A DNA stretch of 64,000 bases from Sphingobacteriales bacterium (GTDB lineage Bacteria > Bacteroidota > Bacteroidia > AKYH767-A > OLB10), in contig JAJTFW010000002.1 in NCBI GenBank assembly GCA_021299095.1, positions 61,503 through 125,502 on the forward strand. Reading direction: 5' to 3'. Positions within the stretch are counted from its first letter, which is position 1. Each line of letters begins with the position of its first letter. The position numbers and the translations under genes are program-made. Below the pieces are notes generated by a model. The model had not been told where the DNA came from and made no database searches. It saw nothing but the letters and a program-made list of their open reading frames with translations. Below, in pieces: positions 53,559-63,402 of this stretch.

Positions 53559-55820
53559 TCAATACGTGATGAATGTGGCTTTTCCGGCCCACCCGCCCAC
53601 TTGAACATGCAGCAAATAGACACCTGGTACTAGGTCGGCAATTTCAAGGAAATGAGGCGAACGTTTTCCGGTTTCAGTCTTGACAAGCCGGCCGGTCATA
53701 TCGAATACCCGCAATAGAGCATCTGAACCCGCAGCCAATTCACCCCATGAAATGGTTAAACGTTGTTTGGCAGGATTGGGATATACCATCAGGGTTAGCA
53801 ACTCGGGCTTAGCCTGTACTGTCAGTGATGTGTTTTGCGTGTAAAGTGAAATACCGCCAGAGAATACACCAACAAAAAGATCCGGCTTGGCATCACCATC
53901 AACATCGGCAAAATCTGGAGATGCGTAGGTGGGCTCAGCGATGCCCTGAAAAATACTGTCACGAAGCCGGAAAGTTCCGTTCAAGTTTGCATCAATGGAA
54001 TCATAATGATGAATAAACCCATCCTGAGAACCTACAATCAACTCATAAACCCCTCCCCGATCGATAAGACGTGGCACAGAGAAACCGGTAAACGAACCTG
54101 GCGCTGTTACATTAACTGAGCCGAACTGAGAAGTTACAAGACTGAAAACCGGATTGGAAACCGAACCGGTGTTTCTGAAGTAATTGATATTACCGGCCCG
54201 TTCGCCAATCAGTAGATCCAACAATCCATCCCGGTCCACATCGATCAACTGGGGAGCCGCATTATCGCCCACATCGATTCCCTGATACGCCGCAACATCA
54301 AAAACAAACACAGAGGACGCACCTGAAGGTGCTGTATTGCGCATAAACACCATCTGCCCACCAGACTCGCCAATCAACATATCCTGATCTCCATCACCAT
54401 CAAGGTCACCGAATGTCAAGTGGAGTGCTAGTAAACCGAGACCAGACAAGGAGGTGAAATCATCCGTCACCCATTCGAATTCGGCCTTGGGTCCGGAACC
54501 GATATTTCTGTAATAGGCCACTTGACCAGACAAGTTGCCTCCGTTGAAGTAGTAATCATTTCCAACTAGCAAATCCAACCTGCCGTCCTGATCAACATCG
54601 AATGAAACCGGATGTGCTCCGGTACCCACATCCACCATAGTAGAAGACAACCAACGATCGCTTTGCTTTGCAAATACATTGGTTTGATTGCTTGTTGTAT
54701 TACGGTAAAACTTCATATTCTGATAATCCTCCGATGCAAAGTAGAAACTACCGGCAAGCAGATCCTTATTCCCATCGTTGTCCAAATCCATATAATGCGG
54801 ACTCACCATCTCCTTCATCCTAACGGGCTGGTCATACGAAGGGAATGCAGTATCCTGACTACATATCCAGGCCGAATCAGGTGTTCCGCAGTTTTGAAGA
54901 TAAAGCAGGTTATTACCCAAAATATCGCCATTGAGTACATCCTTGTCACCATCACCATCAAGGTCACAAACCAACAGGCATGATCCGGCGTGACGCAAAC
55001 GTCCCGTTTGCTGATCAAACCGATTTGACAAATCATTCAATTGAGGGCTGGAGTCAGCATCTATGCGAGGCGAGTTGGCCGGCGTGAGTGGACAGATATT
55101 CGGAATGGGTGGCAATAAGGCGGAATTACCCGTATTGGTCAATACGAAATAACCCCAACAATTGGGTATGTTCCGCATCGGTGACAGAGCCACCACACCA
55201 GTCGAATCAACCGAATAATTCCGGTGGTGTTCAATGAAAGACCCACTAATGCTCAGGGCGACTACATCCATGTCGCCGTCGTTGTCCAGATCACTCAAAG
55301 CAGGAGCATTGACCCTGGATGCATAGATGTTGGTTTGAAAATTACCATAATAGGTCTGCAGTTGTGCCGTGATAAATGTGAACTGAAGCCCCAAAGAAGG
55401 GGAAAAGTCATTTCTATACACCGCTATACCTCCACCATTGTAGGTGAAAAAATCCATGTCCCCGTCGTTATCGTAGTCAAACGACCTAATCCAACCTTCG
55501 ATTTGACCCACGGGAAAGCGTGATACATATTCGGGGGCGTATACGTATGATGACTGATTCAAGATGCCCAGATTTATGAACGTATTGAATCGGTTGGCAG
55601 GGGCGTCCAGGTGTAAAAGATCCATCTTGCCATCCCCATTCAGATCAATTTCGGCAATTGAAGCACTGTTGATTCCCGGTGCCCATGCGTTGGCTAAACG
55701 CTGACCGGCACGCACAACACTGACGGATGTATCCCTGTACAACTGGAATTGTTGGGCAAAAGAACTCAGGCTGGTAAGAACCAGGAGCAGACTGATTACC
55801 GATTGAAATTTCATCCTCAT
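53559..55820 (-). CDS. FG-GAP/VCBS-repeat T9SS-secreted protein
   Basis: 753 aa; many DxDGDGxxDLL repeats and C-terminal LMVYPNPAKQRLTISWGELAAGSDALLRVFDMTGRLVKTE...PGVYLLHVQVGGWAGKATFITY. Confidence 0.9.
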   Translation of the reverse strand: MRMKFQSVISLLLVLTSLSSFAQQFQLYRDTSVSVVRAGQRLANAWAPGINSASIAEIDLNGDGKMDLLHLDAPANRFNTFINLGILNQSSYVYAPEYVSRFPVGQIEGWIRSFDYDNDGDMDFFTYNGGGIAVYRNDFSPSLGLQFTFITAQLQTYYGNFQTNIYASRVNAPALSDLDNDGDMDVVALSISGSFIEHHRNYSVDSTGVVALSPMRNIPNCWGYFVLTNTGNSALLPPIPNICPLTPANSPRIDADSSPQLNDLSNRFDQQTGRLRHAGSCLLVCDLDGDGDKDVLNGDILGNNLLYLQNCGTPDSAWICSQDTAFPSYDQPVRMKEMVSPHYMDLDNDGNKDLLAGSFYFASEDYQNMKFYRNTTSNQTNVFAKQSDRWLSSTMVDVGTGAHPVSFDVDQDGRLDLLVGNDYYFNGGNLSGQVAYYRNIGSGPKAEFEWVTDDFTSLSGLGLLALHLTFGDLDGDGDQDMLIGESGGQMVFMRNTAPSGASSVFVFDVAAYQGIDVGDNAAPQLIDVDRDGLLDLLIGERAGNINYFRNTGSVSNPVFSLVTSQFGSVNVTAPGSFTGFSVPRLIDRGGVYELIVGSQDGFIHHYDSIDANLNGTFRLRDSIFQGIAEPTYASPDFADVDGDAKPDLFVGVFSGGISLYTQNTSLTVQAKPELLTLMVYPNPAKQRLTISWGELAAGSDALLRVFDMTGRLVKTETGKRSPHFLEIADLVPGVYLLHVQVGGWAGKATFITY

Positions 55821-58012
55821 TGTTTAACCAGCCGTTTACAGGAATACATGATTTCAGATTTTGCCTCAACAAAATAAACGCCTGAAGGAAGGGTTGTAAG
55901 ATCCAGTATAAGTTCGTTTGAACCCGTACTGAACTCTCTGACGGATTGACCATGCAAATCGAGTAATCGAACACGCACCAATGCATTCGTGTTTCCTGAA
56001 GGCAGAGCAATACGCACTGTGCTTTCAGCGGGGTTCGGATAAAGCATGATACCGGCGTTACGGGCAAGTTGATCGGTATCGGATGCAGCAGTGGAAGTAC
56101 TTGAATAAAAACGAATGCCGCCAGCATTACAACCAGCCATCAAGTCCGGATTACCATCACCATCAAGATCCGCACGGGCAATGGTTATCCGCTTCAATTC
56201 CTGAATGCCAGAATAGACTGAGTCAGCCAGTAAAAATGAGCCGCCAAGGTTGCTGTCGATATCAACAAAATGATAAATGCTTCCGTTGTCACAACCCACT
56301 AAAAGCTGATACCCGGATGGAGAATCATACATGTAAGGGTCGCTATAGCCGGCTATTCCACCCGGCTGCAACACGTTCACCGCACCAAAATTGGAAGACA
56401 CGAGACTAAACAAAGCGGGGCCGGAAGGACTGATGTTCCGGTAATAATTCAAGACGCCAGAACGCTCGCCTATCAATAAATCCATCCGGCCATCGCGATC
56501 AACATCGATGAGCTGAGGCTGGCTATTGTTTCCAATGTCGATTCCCTGCCAAGCGGGAGCATTGAACACGAATTGAGGTGCCTGACCTGCTCCCGCTACA
56601 TTGGAGTACAGAATCAAAGTTCCATCGGCATTTCCCAACAAGAGATCGGCATCTCCGTCAGCATCTACATCACCAAATTCAGGTGCGAGGCCATATTGTT
56701 GAAGGGAGGATAAACCAAGCCAGTCGCGGTCTACCATCTCAAAAGAAGGAGCACTAACAGAACCAACGTTCCGCAACCATGCAAGCCTTGAATAAGTCAA
56801 ACCGGGATCGGTATTGAAGTACAACTCATTCCCGACCACCACATCCTGAAGGCCATCGTTGTCCACATCGAACAACACGGGACTTGAAGCGGTCCCAAGG
56901 TCTATGGTTTGCCGGCCCACGAATTGGGTATCTGTCAACTGGAAGATATTGGAGCAATTGTCCGTTGTGTTTTGATAACAATGCAAGTTATTGAAATCTT
57001 CGCCTACAGTCGCAAATGGACTCACCAGCATATCTTTCTGCTGATCGTTATTCAGGTCTATATAATAAGCTCCAGGAAGATTTTGCATCATCACAGGAAC
57101 ATCGTACACAGGAAAGTTGATATCCTGCTGCGTGATGATCGCCGAATCGGGCGTGCCACCATTGAGGAGAAAGAGCATATTCTCACCTAGAATGTCTCCG
57201 TTGAGTAAATCCACGTCGCCGTCGCAGTCCTGATCCATTGGCGTAAGCACCGAACCGGCATGTCTTCGTGCTGAAAAAACAGCGGAATCCAACACACCTG
57301 AGCGACAACTTTGGTTCAACAAACCGGTGTTGCTCAGTCCGCTCAGTTTGAAATAACCCCAACAATACGGCTCGAGTGAAAAGCGAAACGCATTACAGGT
57401 TCCGGCTGAGTCAATTGCATAATTTCGGTGATACTCCAGGTAATTGCTCGAACTGGAAAACGTGATGATATCAAGATCGGTGTCACCATCTACGTCGACC
57501 AATGCCGGAAGATTGACCTGGCTGACAAATATGGGATTCTGAAACGAACCATACCATGAGGGCAGTTGCTGTACTACAGGTGTAAAGGTCAGCCCGAAAC
57601 CAGGACTGAAATCATTCCTCCAAACTCCGATTGCAGCATTGGTGTAACTAAACAAATCCATATCCCCATCACAATCAAAATCAGCAGACCGCACCCAATC
57701 GTGGAAGGGTGGAAGGAGATTGGTCCATTCGGGCATATAGCGGTAAGGCATTGCTGCCGTATCGCCGGTATTTTTGAAGGGAGTGATTCGATTTCCAACG
57801 CGGTCGAAAAAAAACAGATCCATCACAGCGTCACCATCGAAATCCAATTCGACCGGGATGATGCTATTGAAGCCTCCTGTCCAGGGGAAGAGCAGGGTAT
57901 CGCCCAGAACCGTAACCGGCGGACGCTGATCGAGCCGGAGCAGGGGTGCCTGCTGAGCCCTGACTACTGATCCACAAGCCATAAGCAGGAAAATAGCAAT
58001 AAATGATCGCAT
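55817..58012 (-). CDS. FG-GAP/VCBS-repeat T9SS-secreted protein (paralogue of the next gene)
   Basis: 731 aa; same architecture as 53559..55820; C-terminal IMLYPNPAESTVRIALPSGNTNALVRVRLLDLHGQSVREFSTGSNELILDLTTLPSGVYFVEAKSEIMYSCKRLVKQ; ATGA overlap with the downstream gene. Confidence 0.9.
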   Translation of the reverse strand: MRSFIAIFLLMACGSVVRAQQAPLLRLDQRPPVTVLGDTLLFPWTGGFNSIIPVELDFDGDAVMDLFFFDRVGNRITPFKNTGDTAAMPYRYMPEWTNLLPPFHDWVRSADFDCDGDMDLFSYTNAAIGVWRNDFSPGFGLTFTPVVQQLPSWYGSFQNPIFVSQVNLPALVDVDGDTDLDIITFSSSSNYLEYHRNYAIDSAGTCNAFRFSLEPYCWGYFKLSGLSNTGLLNQSCRSGVLDSAVFSARRHAGSVLTPMDQDCDGDVDLLNGDILGENMLFLLNGGTPDSAIITQQDINFPVYDVPVMMQNLPGAYYIDLNNDQQKDMLVSPFATVGEDFNNLHCYQNTTDNCSNIFQLTDTQFVGRQTIDLGTASSPVLFDVDNDGLQDVVVGNELYFNTDPGLTYSRLAWLRNVGSVSAPSFEMVDRDWLGLSSLQQYGLAPEFGDVDADGDADLLLGNADGTLILYSNVAGAGQAPQFVFNAPAWQGIDIGNNSQPQLIDVDRDGRMDLLIGERSGVLNYYRNISPSGPALFSLVSSNFGAVNVLQPGGIAGYSDPYMYDSPSGYQLLVGCDNGSIYHFVDIDSNLGGSFLLADSVYSGIQELKRITIARADLDGDGNPDLMAGCNAGGIRFYSSTSTAASDTDQLARNAGIMLYPNPAESTVRIALPSGNTNALVRVRLLDLHGQSVREFSTGSNELILDLTTLPSGVYFVEAKSEIMYSCKRLVKQ

Positions 58013-58809: not shown

Positions 58810-59613
58810 ATGAGTCAGAACAAATCCGGATCCGGAATTCAAGGCATGCTGGCGGCTATTGTCATCCCTGCCTCCATCGTCCTGTGCACTATCATTTACA
58901 TGTTCATTCTGGGTAATCCATCCAATTTCCAGGACAACAATCCCGAACTGAACCCACTCCCCGGAAACTACCTTGGCATCATTTACAAGGGAGGATTCAT
59001 CGTGCCAATCCTGATGGCGCTGCTCGTTATTGTCATCACCTTCGTAATTGAGCGCTTCATTACGGTAGCTCAATCGACGGGTACCGGGAAAATCGACGCC
59101 TTCGTACACAAAGTACGCTCATCACTCTCTAGTGGTAACATCGATGCTGCCCGCGCAGAGTGCGGCAAACAAAAAGGCTCTATCGCCGCTGTAGTCAGTG
59201 CGGGACTGAACGCATACAAGCAGATGGAAGGTGATAAAACCCTCGATAAAGAAAAGAAAGTTGCTGTCATCCAAAAGGAAATTGAAGAAGCCACTACCCT
59301 CGAGCTTCCGATGCTTTCGAAAAACCTGGTCATCATCTCAACGATCGCCTCCATCGCTACCCTCATGGGACTGCTCGGAACTGTTATCGGTATGATCAGG
59401 GCCTTCGCAGCTCTTGCTCAGGCCGGAGCACCTGACGCCGTAGCCCTTGCTACCGGTATCTCCGAGGCACTGATTAACACCGGTCTCGGTATCGGAACCT
59501 CCGCTATCGCTATCATCTTCTACAACTACTTTACGAACAAGATCGATTCGATCACGTACGGTATCGATGAAGCCGGTTATTCGATTGTCCAAACCTTCAC
59601 TTCACGTAACTGA
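58810..59613 (+). CDS. exbB: MotA/TolQ/ExbB proton channel family protein
   Basis: 267 aa; ISTIASIATLMGLLGTVIGMIRAFAALAQAGAPDAVALATGISEALINTGLGIGTSAIAIIFYNYF. Confidence 0.93.
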   Translation: MSQNKSGSGIQGMLAAIVIPASIVLCTIIYMFILGNPSNFQDNNPELNPLPGNYLGIIYKGGFIVPILMALLVIVITFVIERFITVAQSTGTGKIDAFVHKVRSSLSSGNIDAARAECGKQKGSIAAVVSAGLNAYKQMEGDKTLDKEKKVAVIQKEIEEATTLELPMLSKNLVIISTIASIATLMGLLGTVIGMIRAFAALAQAGAPDAVALATGISEALINTGLGIGTSAIAIIFYNYFTNKIDSITYGIDEAGYSIVQTFTSRN

Positions 59614-59656: not shown

Positions 59657-60292
59657 ATGCCAAAAGTGAAGTTGCCGAAAAAGAGTCCGTCCCTCGACAT
59701 GACGCCGATGGTAGACTTGGCCTTCCTCCTGGTGACGTTCTTCATGCTCACCACCCAATTCAGGCCTGACGAGCCAGTCATTATCGACTCGCCGTCTTCG
59801 ATTTCTGAAAAAATCCTGCCTGAAAAAGTCATGGTTGTTAGTATCGACCGCGGAAACCGTGTTTTCTTCAATCTTGAAGGAAAAGATATCCGCAAAACCA
59901 TGCTAACACAGATGGGTGAAAAATACAGCGTGAAGTTCGACGACAACGATCTCAAGCGTTTCTCCGTCATGACCACATTCGGAATGACCGTCCAGCAGCT
60001 GAAGCAATACCTTCCGATGGGCGAGGAGCAACGCAAAGCCTTCATGAAGCAAAGCCAGGGTATCCCCTACGACTCACTCAACAACCAGCTCGGCGATTGG
60101 ATCCGGTTCGGACGTCTTGCCGACGCCCAGTTGAGCGGTGATGTAGACAAGGAAAAACAACTTCGGTTTGCCATCAAAGGCGATGCGAACGCCAATTACA
60201 CGGCCGTTAAACGCGTAATCGAGATCTTCCAGGAGATGAAAGTGAACCGATTCAACATGATTACATCACTAGAAGACAATCCCAACCAATAA
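59657..60292 (+). CDS. exbD: Biopolymer transport protein ExbD
   Basis: SPSLDMTPMVDLAFLLVTFFMLTTQFR. Confidence 0.93.
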   Translation: MPKVKLPKKSPSLDMTPMVDLAFLLVTFFMLTTQFRPDEPVIIDSPSSISEKILPEKVMVVSIDRGNRVFFNLEGKDIRKTMLTQMGEKYSVKFDDNDLKRFSVMTTFGMTVQQLKQYLPMGEEQRKAFMKQSQGIPYDSLNNQLGDWIRFGRLADAQLSGDVDKEKQLRFAIKGDANANYTAVKRVIEIFQEMKVNRFNMITSLEDNPNQ

Positions 60293-60304
60293 CCGATATC
60301 CAAC

Positions 60305-60919
60305 ATGGCAGAAGTACAAAGCAACGAACAGGACTCGGGGAAAGGCGGGAAACACAAGAAAGTCCGTGCCAAAAAACAGAGCACTCACATCGATATGACT
60401 CCGATGGTGGATCTCGCGTTTCTGCTGCTCACTTTCTTCATGCTTACGACCACCTTTGGGAAACCCAAAACGATGGAGATCAACATGCCGGTGAAGCCTG
60501 AACTTGAAGATCAGCAAACGCTTGTAAATAATGCCATCACCATACTGTTGACCGGCGACAACAAGATCTACTGGTACTTCGGCGAATTGAAGCCAGAGAC
60601 CACACTGTCGCCCACCAACTATTCCCAAGAAGGACTTCGTAAACTCTTGCTCGAAAAGAATCAATATGCTTTTGACAAGATCAAACAGCTACGCGAGCAG
60701 GCGGTAAAAACGAACATGGCCGATACTACACTCAAGCGGCTGGAAGTGGAAACCAAGGGCGAGAAAAAAGCACTTATGGTACTTGTAAAAGCCGACGACA
60801 AAGCGATTTATAAAAATGTTGTTGACGTGCTGGACGAACTGAATATCACCATGGTGGGTAAATATGCCATAGTTGATATCGGGCAGCAGGAATATGACCT
60901 TATGACCGCCATGAAATAA
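60305..60919 (+). CDS. exbD: Biopolymer transport protein ExbD (second copy)
   Basis: STHIDMTPMVDLAFLLLTFFMLTTTFGKPKTMEINMP. Confidence 0.93.
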   Translation: MAEVQSNEQDSGKGGKHKKVRAKKQSTHIDMTPMVDLAFLLLTFFMLTTTFGKPKTMEINMPVKPELEDQQTLVNNAITILLTGDNKIYWYFGELKPETTLSPTNYSQEGLRKLLLEKNQYAFDKIKQLREQAVKTNMADTTLKRLEVETKGEKKALMVLVKADDKAIYKNVVDVLDELNITMVGKYAIVDIGQQEYDLMTAMK

Positions 60920-60938: not shown

Positions 60939-62126
60939 ATGGCAGACATAAAACAACTCATATACATCGTTGACGACGAACCCTTACAGGCCGAAGTCCT
61001 GAAGGATCATCTTGTCAATGTACACAAATGCGACATAAGCATTTTCAGTACCGGCGAAGATGCCCTTGCAGTTATCGAAAAAGAAAAGCCGTCAATCGTA
61101 TTCCTGGACTACAACCTTGACTCCAAGGTGCGTGAAGCAAAAAACGGCTTAGACATTCTCAAAGAAATTAAGCGACGCCTACCTGACACCCAGTGCATCA
61201 TGCTTTCGGGTCAGAATAAAATTGAAATAGCAGACCAAGCTATGCAAGCCGGCGCCGTCGAATACATCAAGAAGGGAGATGGCGCACTGCTGAAAGCCGA
61301 GAAAACAGTTTTCAACCTGAACAACCTGATGCCTCAGCCGGGCTGGGACAACCCTACTTCACCGGAACGCACGGAAATGGTTTTCCAGAACAGGAACAAA
61401 CATTACGGTGCGTATGTGATTCGTAAAGGGTATAACCGAACCGCGGCCAGGGCATTGTTGGCTTCCCTATTTGGATTTGCCTTTCTCATCAGTTTGCCGG
61501 TCATTATCAGTCTCATTGGCTCAGTGGACTTAAACGAGGTCGAAAAGCCGGTGGAAGTCACCGTGGAACTCAAGGAGCCACCACCCCTTGATAAAAACGA
61601 GCCCCCACCCCCACCGCCACCGCCACCACCACCCACCATCGAGACCGTAAAGTTTACACCTCCCGTTGTGGTTGACCGTGAACTTGAAGAAGAGGAGCAA
61701 CCACCACCCCAGGAGCAGCTGAGCGAAACCAACGTTGGCGTAGTCACCCAGGAAGGTGATGAAAACGCAACGGAGCTTCCACCTGATGAACCCGTTGATC
61801 CAGATGCAGGCAAGATTTTCACCTATGTGGAAGAACAGCCCACATTCCCCGGAGGCGAATCAGCGATGTACGAATATCTTCAACGCAACATCAAATATCC
61901 GGCCCTTGCCCGTGAAAATGGCATAACGGGACGCGTATTCATCACCTTCGTTGTAGGATCCGATGGCCAAATTCGCGACGTAAAGATTTTACGCGGTATC
62001 GGTGCAGGATGCGATGAAGAAGCCCTAAGGGTAGTTCGCAACATGCCCCCTTGGAAACCAGGAAAGCAGAATGGTCGTTCGGTGAATGTGCAGTTCAACA
62101 TGCCGATCAACTTTACCCTCAAGTAA
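60939..62126 (+). CDS. Response-regulator receiver domain fused to TonB energy transducer
   Basis: 395 aa single ORF: REC domain (IYIVDDE...VFLDYNLDS...IMLSGQ...AGAVEYIKKG) followed by the Bacteroidota TonB N-terminus (MVFQNRNKHYGAYVIRKGYNRT), one TM segment, Pro-rich spacer, and TonB C-terminal domain (PTFPGGESAMYEYLQRNIKYPALARENGITGRVFITFVVGSDGQIRDVKILRGIGAGCDEEALRVVRNMPPWKPGKQNGRSVNVQFNMPINFTL). Confidence 0.93.
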   Translation: MADIKQLIYIVDDEPLQAEVLKDHLVNVHKCDISIFSTGEDALAVIEKEKPSIVFLDYNLDSKVREAKNGLDILKEIKRRLPDTQCIMLSGQNKIEIADQAMQAGAVEYIKKGDGALLKAEKTVFNLNNLMPQPGWDNPTSPERTEMVFQNRNKHYGAYVIRKGYNRTAARALLASLFGFAFLISLPVIISLIGSVDLNEVEKPVEVTVELKEPPPLDKNEPPPPPPPPPPPTIETVKFTPPVVVDRELEEEEQPPPQEQLSETNVGVVTQEGDENATELPPDEPVDPDAGKIFTYVEEQPTFPGGESAMYEYLQRNIKYPALARENGITGRVFITFVVGSDGQIRDVKILRGIGAGCDEEALRVVRNMPPWKPGKQNGRSVNVQFNMPINFTLK

Positions 62127-62460: not shown

Positions 62461-63402
62461 ATGCACACCTTGAGCCGATTCATTTTCATATCGCTGCTAA
62501 CACTGCTGTTCTCTTGCGGCAGTGACCCGAACAAGCCTTACAACGACACGCCTACATCGGGTACAGTTCGTGTTGTAGGTGATGAAACTCTCGCGCAATT
62601 GCTTGACGCAAACGCTGACACGTTTATGGGACTGTACAGGTATGCGACTATCCAGTTGGATTACGGCCCGGAACAGGACTGTTTCAAAAAATTTATCAAT
62701 GATTCTGCGAAGGTCATCCTCTCCACACGCAAGCTTCGCACAGACGAAGAAGCATATTTCAAATCGAGAAACCTATTTCCGGTAACGACTCGTATCGCTA
62801 TTGACGGACTTGCCATCATCATCAACAAACAGAATAACGACAGTCTCTTGAGTACGGATCAACTCAAGGCTATTTTAAATGGCGAAATCAACGATTGGAA
62901 TGCCATCAACCCTTCCTCGAAGCTTGGTGAAATACGCTTTGTGTTTGACCATACCGGATCTTCTACCGTGCGGAGTTTGTCCGACTCCTTACTGAACGGC
63001 AAAACCGAATTCCCCCCGAATTGCTTCGCTGTGCAAACCAATCCCCAGGTGATTGATTATGTGGAACAACATCCAGAAGCGATTGGCGTGATTGGCGTGA
63101 ACTGGATTAGCGATCGTGACGACCCTCAACAGTTGAGCTTCAGCAAACGGATCCGCGTGGCCTGGCTCAGTACAAAACCGGACCCCGTTTATCCTGACGA
63201 TTTTTTCGGGCCTTACCAAGCCTATCTATTCACGGGTGAGTATCCACTGCGCAGGGATGTTTACCTGATAAACCGCGAAGGCAGGAACGGGCTTGGCACG
63301 GGCTTTGCCTCATTCGTCGCCGGAGAACAAGGCCAACGAATCGCAAAATTATCAGGACTGCTTCCTGCTTCACCATACACCCGCGACATCATTCTGCGTT
63401 AA
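62461..63402 (+). CDS. PstS-like phosphate/substrate-binding lipoprotein
   Basis: LLFSCGSDPNKPYNDTPTSGTVRVVGDETL; DGLAIIINKQNNDSLLSTDQLKAILNGEINDWNAINPSSKLGEIRFVFDHTGSSTVRSL. Confidence 0.88.
   Translation: MHTLSRFIFISLLTLLFSCGSDPNKPYNDTPTSGTVRVVGDETLAQLLDANADTFMGLYRYATIQLDYGPEQDCFKKFINDSAKVILSTRKLRTDEEAYFKSRNLFPVTTRIAIDGLAIIINKQNNDSLLSTDQLKAILNGEINDWNAINPSSKLGEIRFVFDHTGSSTVRSLSDSLLNGKTEFPPNCFAVQTNPQVIDYVEQHPEAIGVIGVNWISDRDDPQQLSFSKRIRVAWLSTKPDPVYPDDFFGPYQAYLFTGEYPLRRDVYLINREGRNGLGTGFASFVAGEQGQRIAKLSGLLPASPYTRDIILR

Follow-up and report, generated by a model that had tools for sequence, protein, structure and literature searches.

A recurrent receiver-TonB fusion in uncultured freshwater Bacteroidota, derived from a phosphorelay output and possibly linking it to the Ton motor

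What does a two-component receiver (REC) do at the N-terminus of TonB, a protein whose limiting factors are commonly taken to be proton motive force, the supply of TonB itself and the occupancy of receptors? The question is raised by a gene in the window (the whole 64,000-nucleotide stretch of DNA analysed here), which belongs to a Sphingobacteriales metagenome-assembled genome (MAG; 2.5 Mb, 96% complete; G000). As a sequence-only reading had proposed, this gene (60939-62126, + strand) is a single open reading frame encoding 395 amino acids, running from ATG to TAA without an internal stop. The same reading had described a full receiver with D12-D13, D57 and S90, and this is what we find in residues 1-128 (60939..61322, +): the Pfam match to Response_reg (PF00072) covers residues 8-112 with 69.5 bits against a cut-off of 30.2, the AlphaFold model shows a canonical (beta-alpha)5 fold with target-based TM-scores of 0.8-0.9 to solved receivers (Foldseek), and the active site combines the acidic pair, phospho-Asp, Ser/Thr and Lys of a receiver with Y109. 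Only the catalytic lysine had been misplaced by one residue, at position 111: in the alignment of the six fusions described below, K112 is invariant, as are D12, D13, D57, S90 and Y109, while position 111 is a serine in three relatives (G014, G018 and G020).

The remainder of the protein is a TonB, and alignment, Pfam and the model all agree with the earlier description of a juxtamembrane segment, a single transmembrane (TM) helix, a Pro-rich spacer and an intact C-terminal domain. Residues 129-172 (61323..61454, +) constitute the linker and cytoplasmic juxtamembrane segment with the Bacteroidota RNKHYGAYVIRKGY motif, and alignment with unfused TonBs identifies them as the junction between REC and the former TonB start. 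These are followed by the TM helix at about residues 173-193 (61455..61517, +), the Pro-rich periplasmic spacer at residues 194-305 (61518..61853, +; pLDDT mostly low), and the C-terminal domain at residues 306-395 (61854..62123, +; pLDDT about 90), where the match to TonB_C (PF03544; residues 317-394) reaches 77 bits against a curated cut-off of 24.6. In the model, REC leads into helices 116-130 and 142-153 and then into a single long helix, 158-194, that holds the membrane span and after which the Pro-rich part is disordered; the packing of REC on the remainder is not confident (pTM 0.50). This helix and the positive-inside rule support the proposed N-in topology, which would place REC in the cytoplasm where kinases and HPts act, with ~44 residues between it and the membrane, the conserved RNK.YGAY..R segment among them. 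A TM-helix histidine within an E. coli-type SHLS motif has been described for TonB/TolA (PMC12204202) and is not defining in this clade: the TM helix of the fusion contains no histidine, nor do those of the unfused orthologues compared, and its absence is a trait of the clade, not an effect of the fusion.

The sequence features of a TonB are found together in this protein, i.e., TonB_C above cut-off, a single N-proximal TM helix, a Pro-rich spacer, and linked exbB and exbD genes. The fusion is the fourth gene of an exbB-exbD-exbD-tonB operon, preceded on the + strand by exbB (58810..59613; MotA/TolQ/ExbB proton channel, PF01618, 104.2 bits), exbD1 (59657..60292; PF02472, 65.6 bits) and exbD2 (60305..60919; PF02472, 71.9 bits), with intergenic gaps of 43, 12 and 19 bp, the last of these separating the exbD2 stop codon from the fusion gene. 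On its 3' side lie genes for a small membrane protein, a PBP_like_2 (PstS-like) lipoprotein (62461..63402, +) and a TPR protein, and this order, including the synteny of the lipoprotein with the ton locus, is kept across the taxonomic order. Upstream of the locus, two adjoining large secreted proteins that resemble FG-GAP-repeat proteins and carry sorting-like domains at their C-termini (53559-58012) are kept in several relatives. No kinase gene adjoins the fusion gene. The whole genome encodes two TonB_C proteins, i.e., the fusion and an orphan on contig C77, two ExbB-like proteins, one of them in the fusion operon, and nine recognised receptor barrels. The second ExbB-like cluster (L230:3531-5514, contig C89) includes an ExbD-like protein and a TonB/TolA-like protein not recognised by TonB_C; the cluster overlaps a folC-like ORF. 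No TonB other than the fusion was recognised within an exbB-exbD-exbD operon of this genome.

Full-length REC-TonB is also present in five MAGs of one sister genus, g5 (G007, G014, G018, G020 and G022), with 63-66% identity, an open reading frame and conserved synteny at the same locus. That all known cases are MAGs might point to an assembly or chimera artefact, but the junction and synteny are common to six genomes assembled in separate projects; since the fusion recurs in five further genomes, it can be explained neither by chance nor by one faulty assembly, and we attach almost no probability to an artefact. In the genus of the source genome itself, G001 and G002 carry a TonB without REC at this locus; the same holds for G009, G021 and G023 and for the remaining members of the family and order that were inspected. 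A separate REC gene 5' of tonB was ruled out in these unfused relatives, where exbD2 runs straight into tonB. A sample of ~790 Bacteroidota genome slots, made up of 395 genomes from the class and 396 from the phylum with some overlap, yielded no further homologous fusion, and other long TonB ORFs (G098, G067, G077 and G036) contained no REC; a contig scan with two narrow N-terminal patterns, which could miss independent REC-TonB fusions, returned the same five MAGs and unrelated RECs. Overall, REC-TonB is narrowly distributed, its carriers being a few freshwater Bacteroidota, all uncultured. A search of the openly available literature found no report of REC-TonB, and, in line with the sequence-only reading, the arrangement seems to be undescribed.

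The dN/dS of REC was 0.04-0.10, similar to that of the TonB C-terminal domain, and by this measure the receiver is under strong purifying selection. This bears on the possibility that the fusion is near-neutral: TonB would work as before with REC as a tolerated addition, or translation from an internal start (M131 in the window) would yield an ordinary TonB. While the patchy occurrence of the fusion and the ATG found close to the junction in 6/6 fusions would be consistent with such neutrality, the strong purifying selection and intact active site speak against it, as does the fact that the junction ATG occupies different aligned positions in G000 and g5, making a near-neutral fusion improbable.

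Mapped onto a tree of the neighbouring genes, the distribution of the fusion requires at least three changes, which rules out a single gain followed by simple vertical descent, and the unfused G021 and G023 nest among fused genomes of the sister genus. Compared to their fused neighbours, these two display a strongly different juxtamembrane and TM segment and a near-identical C-terminal half; across g5, the difference between fused and unfused TonBs lies in the linker and membrane segment and does not extend to ExbB/D or the C-terminal half. Almost all of what distinguishes the nested unfused TonBs of loci L041 and L042 from their fused neighbours is confined to the juxtamembrane and TM segment. 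For G014/G018 against G022/G007, pS was 0.43-0.50 over REC versus mostly 0.55-0.95 in the flanks, a difference less clear for G020 against G022. Because synonymous divergence is lower over REC than over its flanks, these alignments suggest some exchange of the REC module by recombination between g5 sublineages. In G000, by contrast, the TM segment of the fusion resembles that of its own genus.

The nearest relatives of the fusion REC are REC-TM proteins, which are about 173 amino acids long, consist of a REC and a C-terminal TM helix, and occur across the order (L081:627-1148, L086:7450-7971 and orthologues) beside an HPt protein and kinases. Specifically, in 12 of 14 contexts REC-TM lies 3' of the HPt gene, and the neighbourhood often also encodes a TPR-histidine kinase, a REC and a REC-kinase-REC hybrid; no output domain was recognised in REC-TM, whose short tail mostly ends in PGW plus one more residue. 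The source genome encodes a second REC followed by a C-terminal TM helix at L082:7086-7643 (contig C52), which is more distantly related. The six fusion RECs group within the g1/g5 REC-TM lineage (support 98/92 and 99/96) when REC-GDH, a sister REC located N-terminal to glutamate dehydrogenase (L099:6279-7880, i.e., G000:C66:14278-15879), is left out. When REC-GDH is included, a branch with 98/91 support sets the fusion RECs and REC-GDH jointly apart from the rest, and the six fusion RECs as a clade apart from REC-GDH are neither shown nor rejected (AU p 0.15-0.17). Phylogenetically, the fusion REC derives from REC-TM, a membrane-anchored phosphorelay output. In known systems, the alpha-1 helix of receivers contacts the kinase or HPt. 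Over this helix, the fusion REC is identical to the same-genome REC-TM at 10/13 positions and to REC-GDH at 8/13, versus 6/13 for two paralogues and ≤4/13 for the remaining RECs of the genome, i.e., its putative partner-recognition helix still matches that of REC-TM.

The HPt protein beside REC-TM is a good candidate phosphodonor, though perhaps not an obligatory one. HPt orthologues are present in fusion genomes G000, G007, G014 and G018; in G009, HPt is present and REC-TM is not beside it. Because no HPt orthologue was found in the two other fusion genomes, G020 (99% complete) and G022 (92%), the phosphodonor is uncertain, and this gap, together with the patchiness within the genus, counts against a simple fixed pathway. 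No REC-TM was detected in these two genomes either, and REC-TonB could therefore substitute for it there. This would be expected if TonB were a mere anchor, providing a helix and co-expression while itself remaining unregulated, and REC kept a REC-TM-like role, as a phosphorelay member held at the membrane or as a sink for phosphate, much as its nearest relatives are just a REC and a membrane helix. However, G000, G007, G014 and G018 hold both REC-TM and REC-TonB, and the g5 linker and membrane segment varies with fusion state, which hints at REC and the part in contact with the motor belonging together; we consider the anchor role rather unlikely.

The architecture, conservation, ancestry and operon context are observed here, whereas any phosphodonor, gating step and direction of effect are inferred. 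Our leading interpretation, to which we give slightly better than even chances and which follows the gating suggested by the sequence-only reading, is that a working REC from REC-TM sits on TonB, where phosphorylation of D57 tunes the engagement of ExbB-ExbD. REC would have been duplicated from REC-TM and joined in frame to tonB within the exbB-exbD-exbD-tonB operon, and a kinase or HPt would phosphorylate D57. Phosphorylated REC may then alter the face contacting the TonB juxtamembrane segment, the cytoplasmic part of ExbB, or a neighbouring REC-TonB, and thereby raise or lower the ability of TonB to engage the ExbB-ExbD motor; in related motors, the TonB TM helix packs on ExbB TM1 near the cytoplasmic leaflet (PMC9022066). 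Uptake energy would thereby be tuned post-translationally by a signalling family also acting on REC-TM and REC-GDH. REC-GDH was detected in all six fusion genomes, G003 and G021, while G001, G002 and G009 encode a glutamate dehydrogenase without REC, and this parallel distribution, drawn from few independent lineages and uncorrected for phylogeny, suggests a common pathway for REC-GDH and REC-TonB. That the phosphorelay controls the Ton motor in cis and coordinates it with nitrogen metabolism via REC-GDH is a more tentative proposal. Information may also flow in reverse, with TonB energisation or occupancy changing REC access to the kinase or HPt so that the cell senses Ton activity. The location of REC in cis to the motor and the membership of its sister RECs in a phosphorelay would suit such sensing, but receivers usually act as effectors of output domains and no sequence evidence separates reverse from forward control, leaving this reversal with a low likelihood.

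Taken together, these comparisons indicate that REC-TonB is real, recurrent, selected and derived from a phosphorelay output, while its function is inferred. If forward control holds, two-component signalling would act on the motor directly and after translation, through a receiver built into TonB. In addition, because sister genomes carry fused or unfused alleles at one locus, these alleles provide a natural tool for studying how TonB engages ExbB-ExbD.

The fusion can be compared with several known systems. With the Bacteroidota TonBs of exbB-exbD-exbD-tonB loci it has in common the RNK.YGAY..R motif, TM helix, Pro-rich spacer, C-terminal domain and operon, but it carries an N-terminal receiver in place of the first few residues. 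Its REC is 57% identical to that of the same-genome REC-TM (60/105 columns) and is likewise followed by a TM helix; it nevertheless falls outside the REC-TM family, whose members end ~10 residues beyond the TM helix and adjoin HPt, whereas the fusion continues into a periplasmic TonB part and has no adjoining HPt. REC-GDH offers a parallel, with a sister REC at the N-terminus of a non-regulatory protein, although the partner there is a soluble metabolic enzyme. Finally, YcgR, a cytoplasmic signal-bound protein, has been reported to brake the MotA stator of the ExbB/MotA family (PMC10140304, PMC12713396). This is an analogy only: YcgR is a separate protein that responds to c-di-GMP and acts on the flagellar motor, while REC-TonB would act in cis, through phosphorylation, on the Ton motor.
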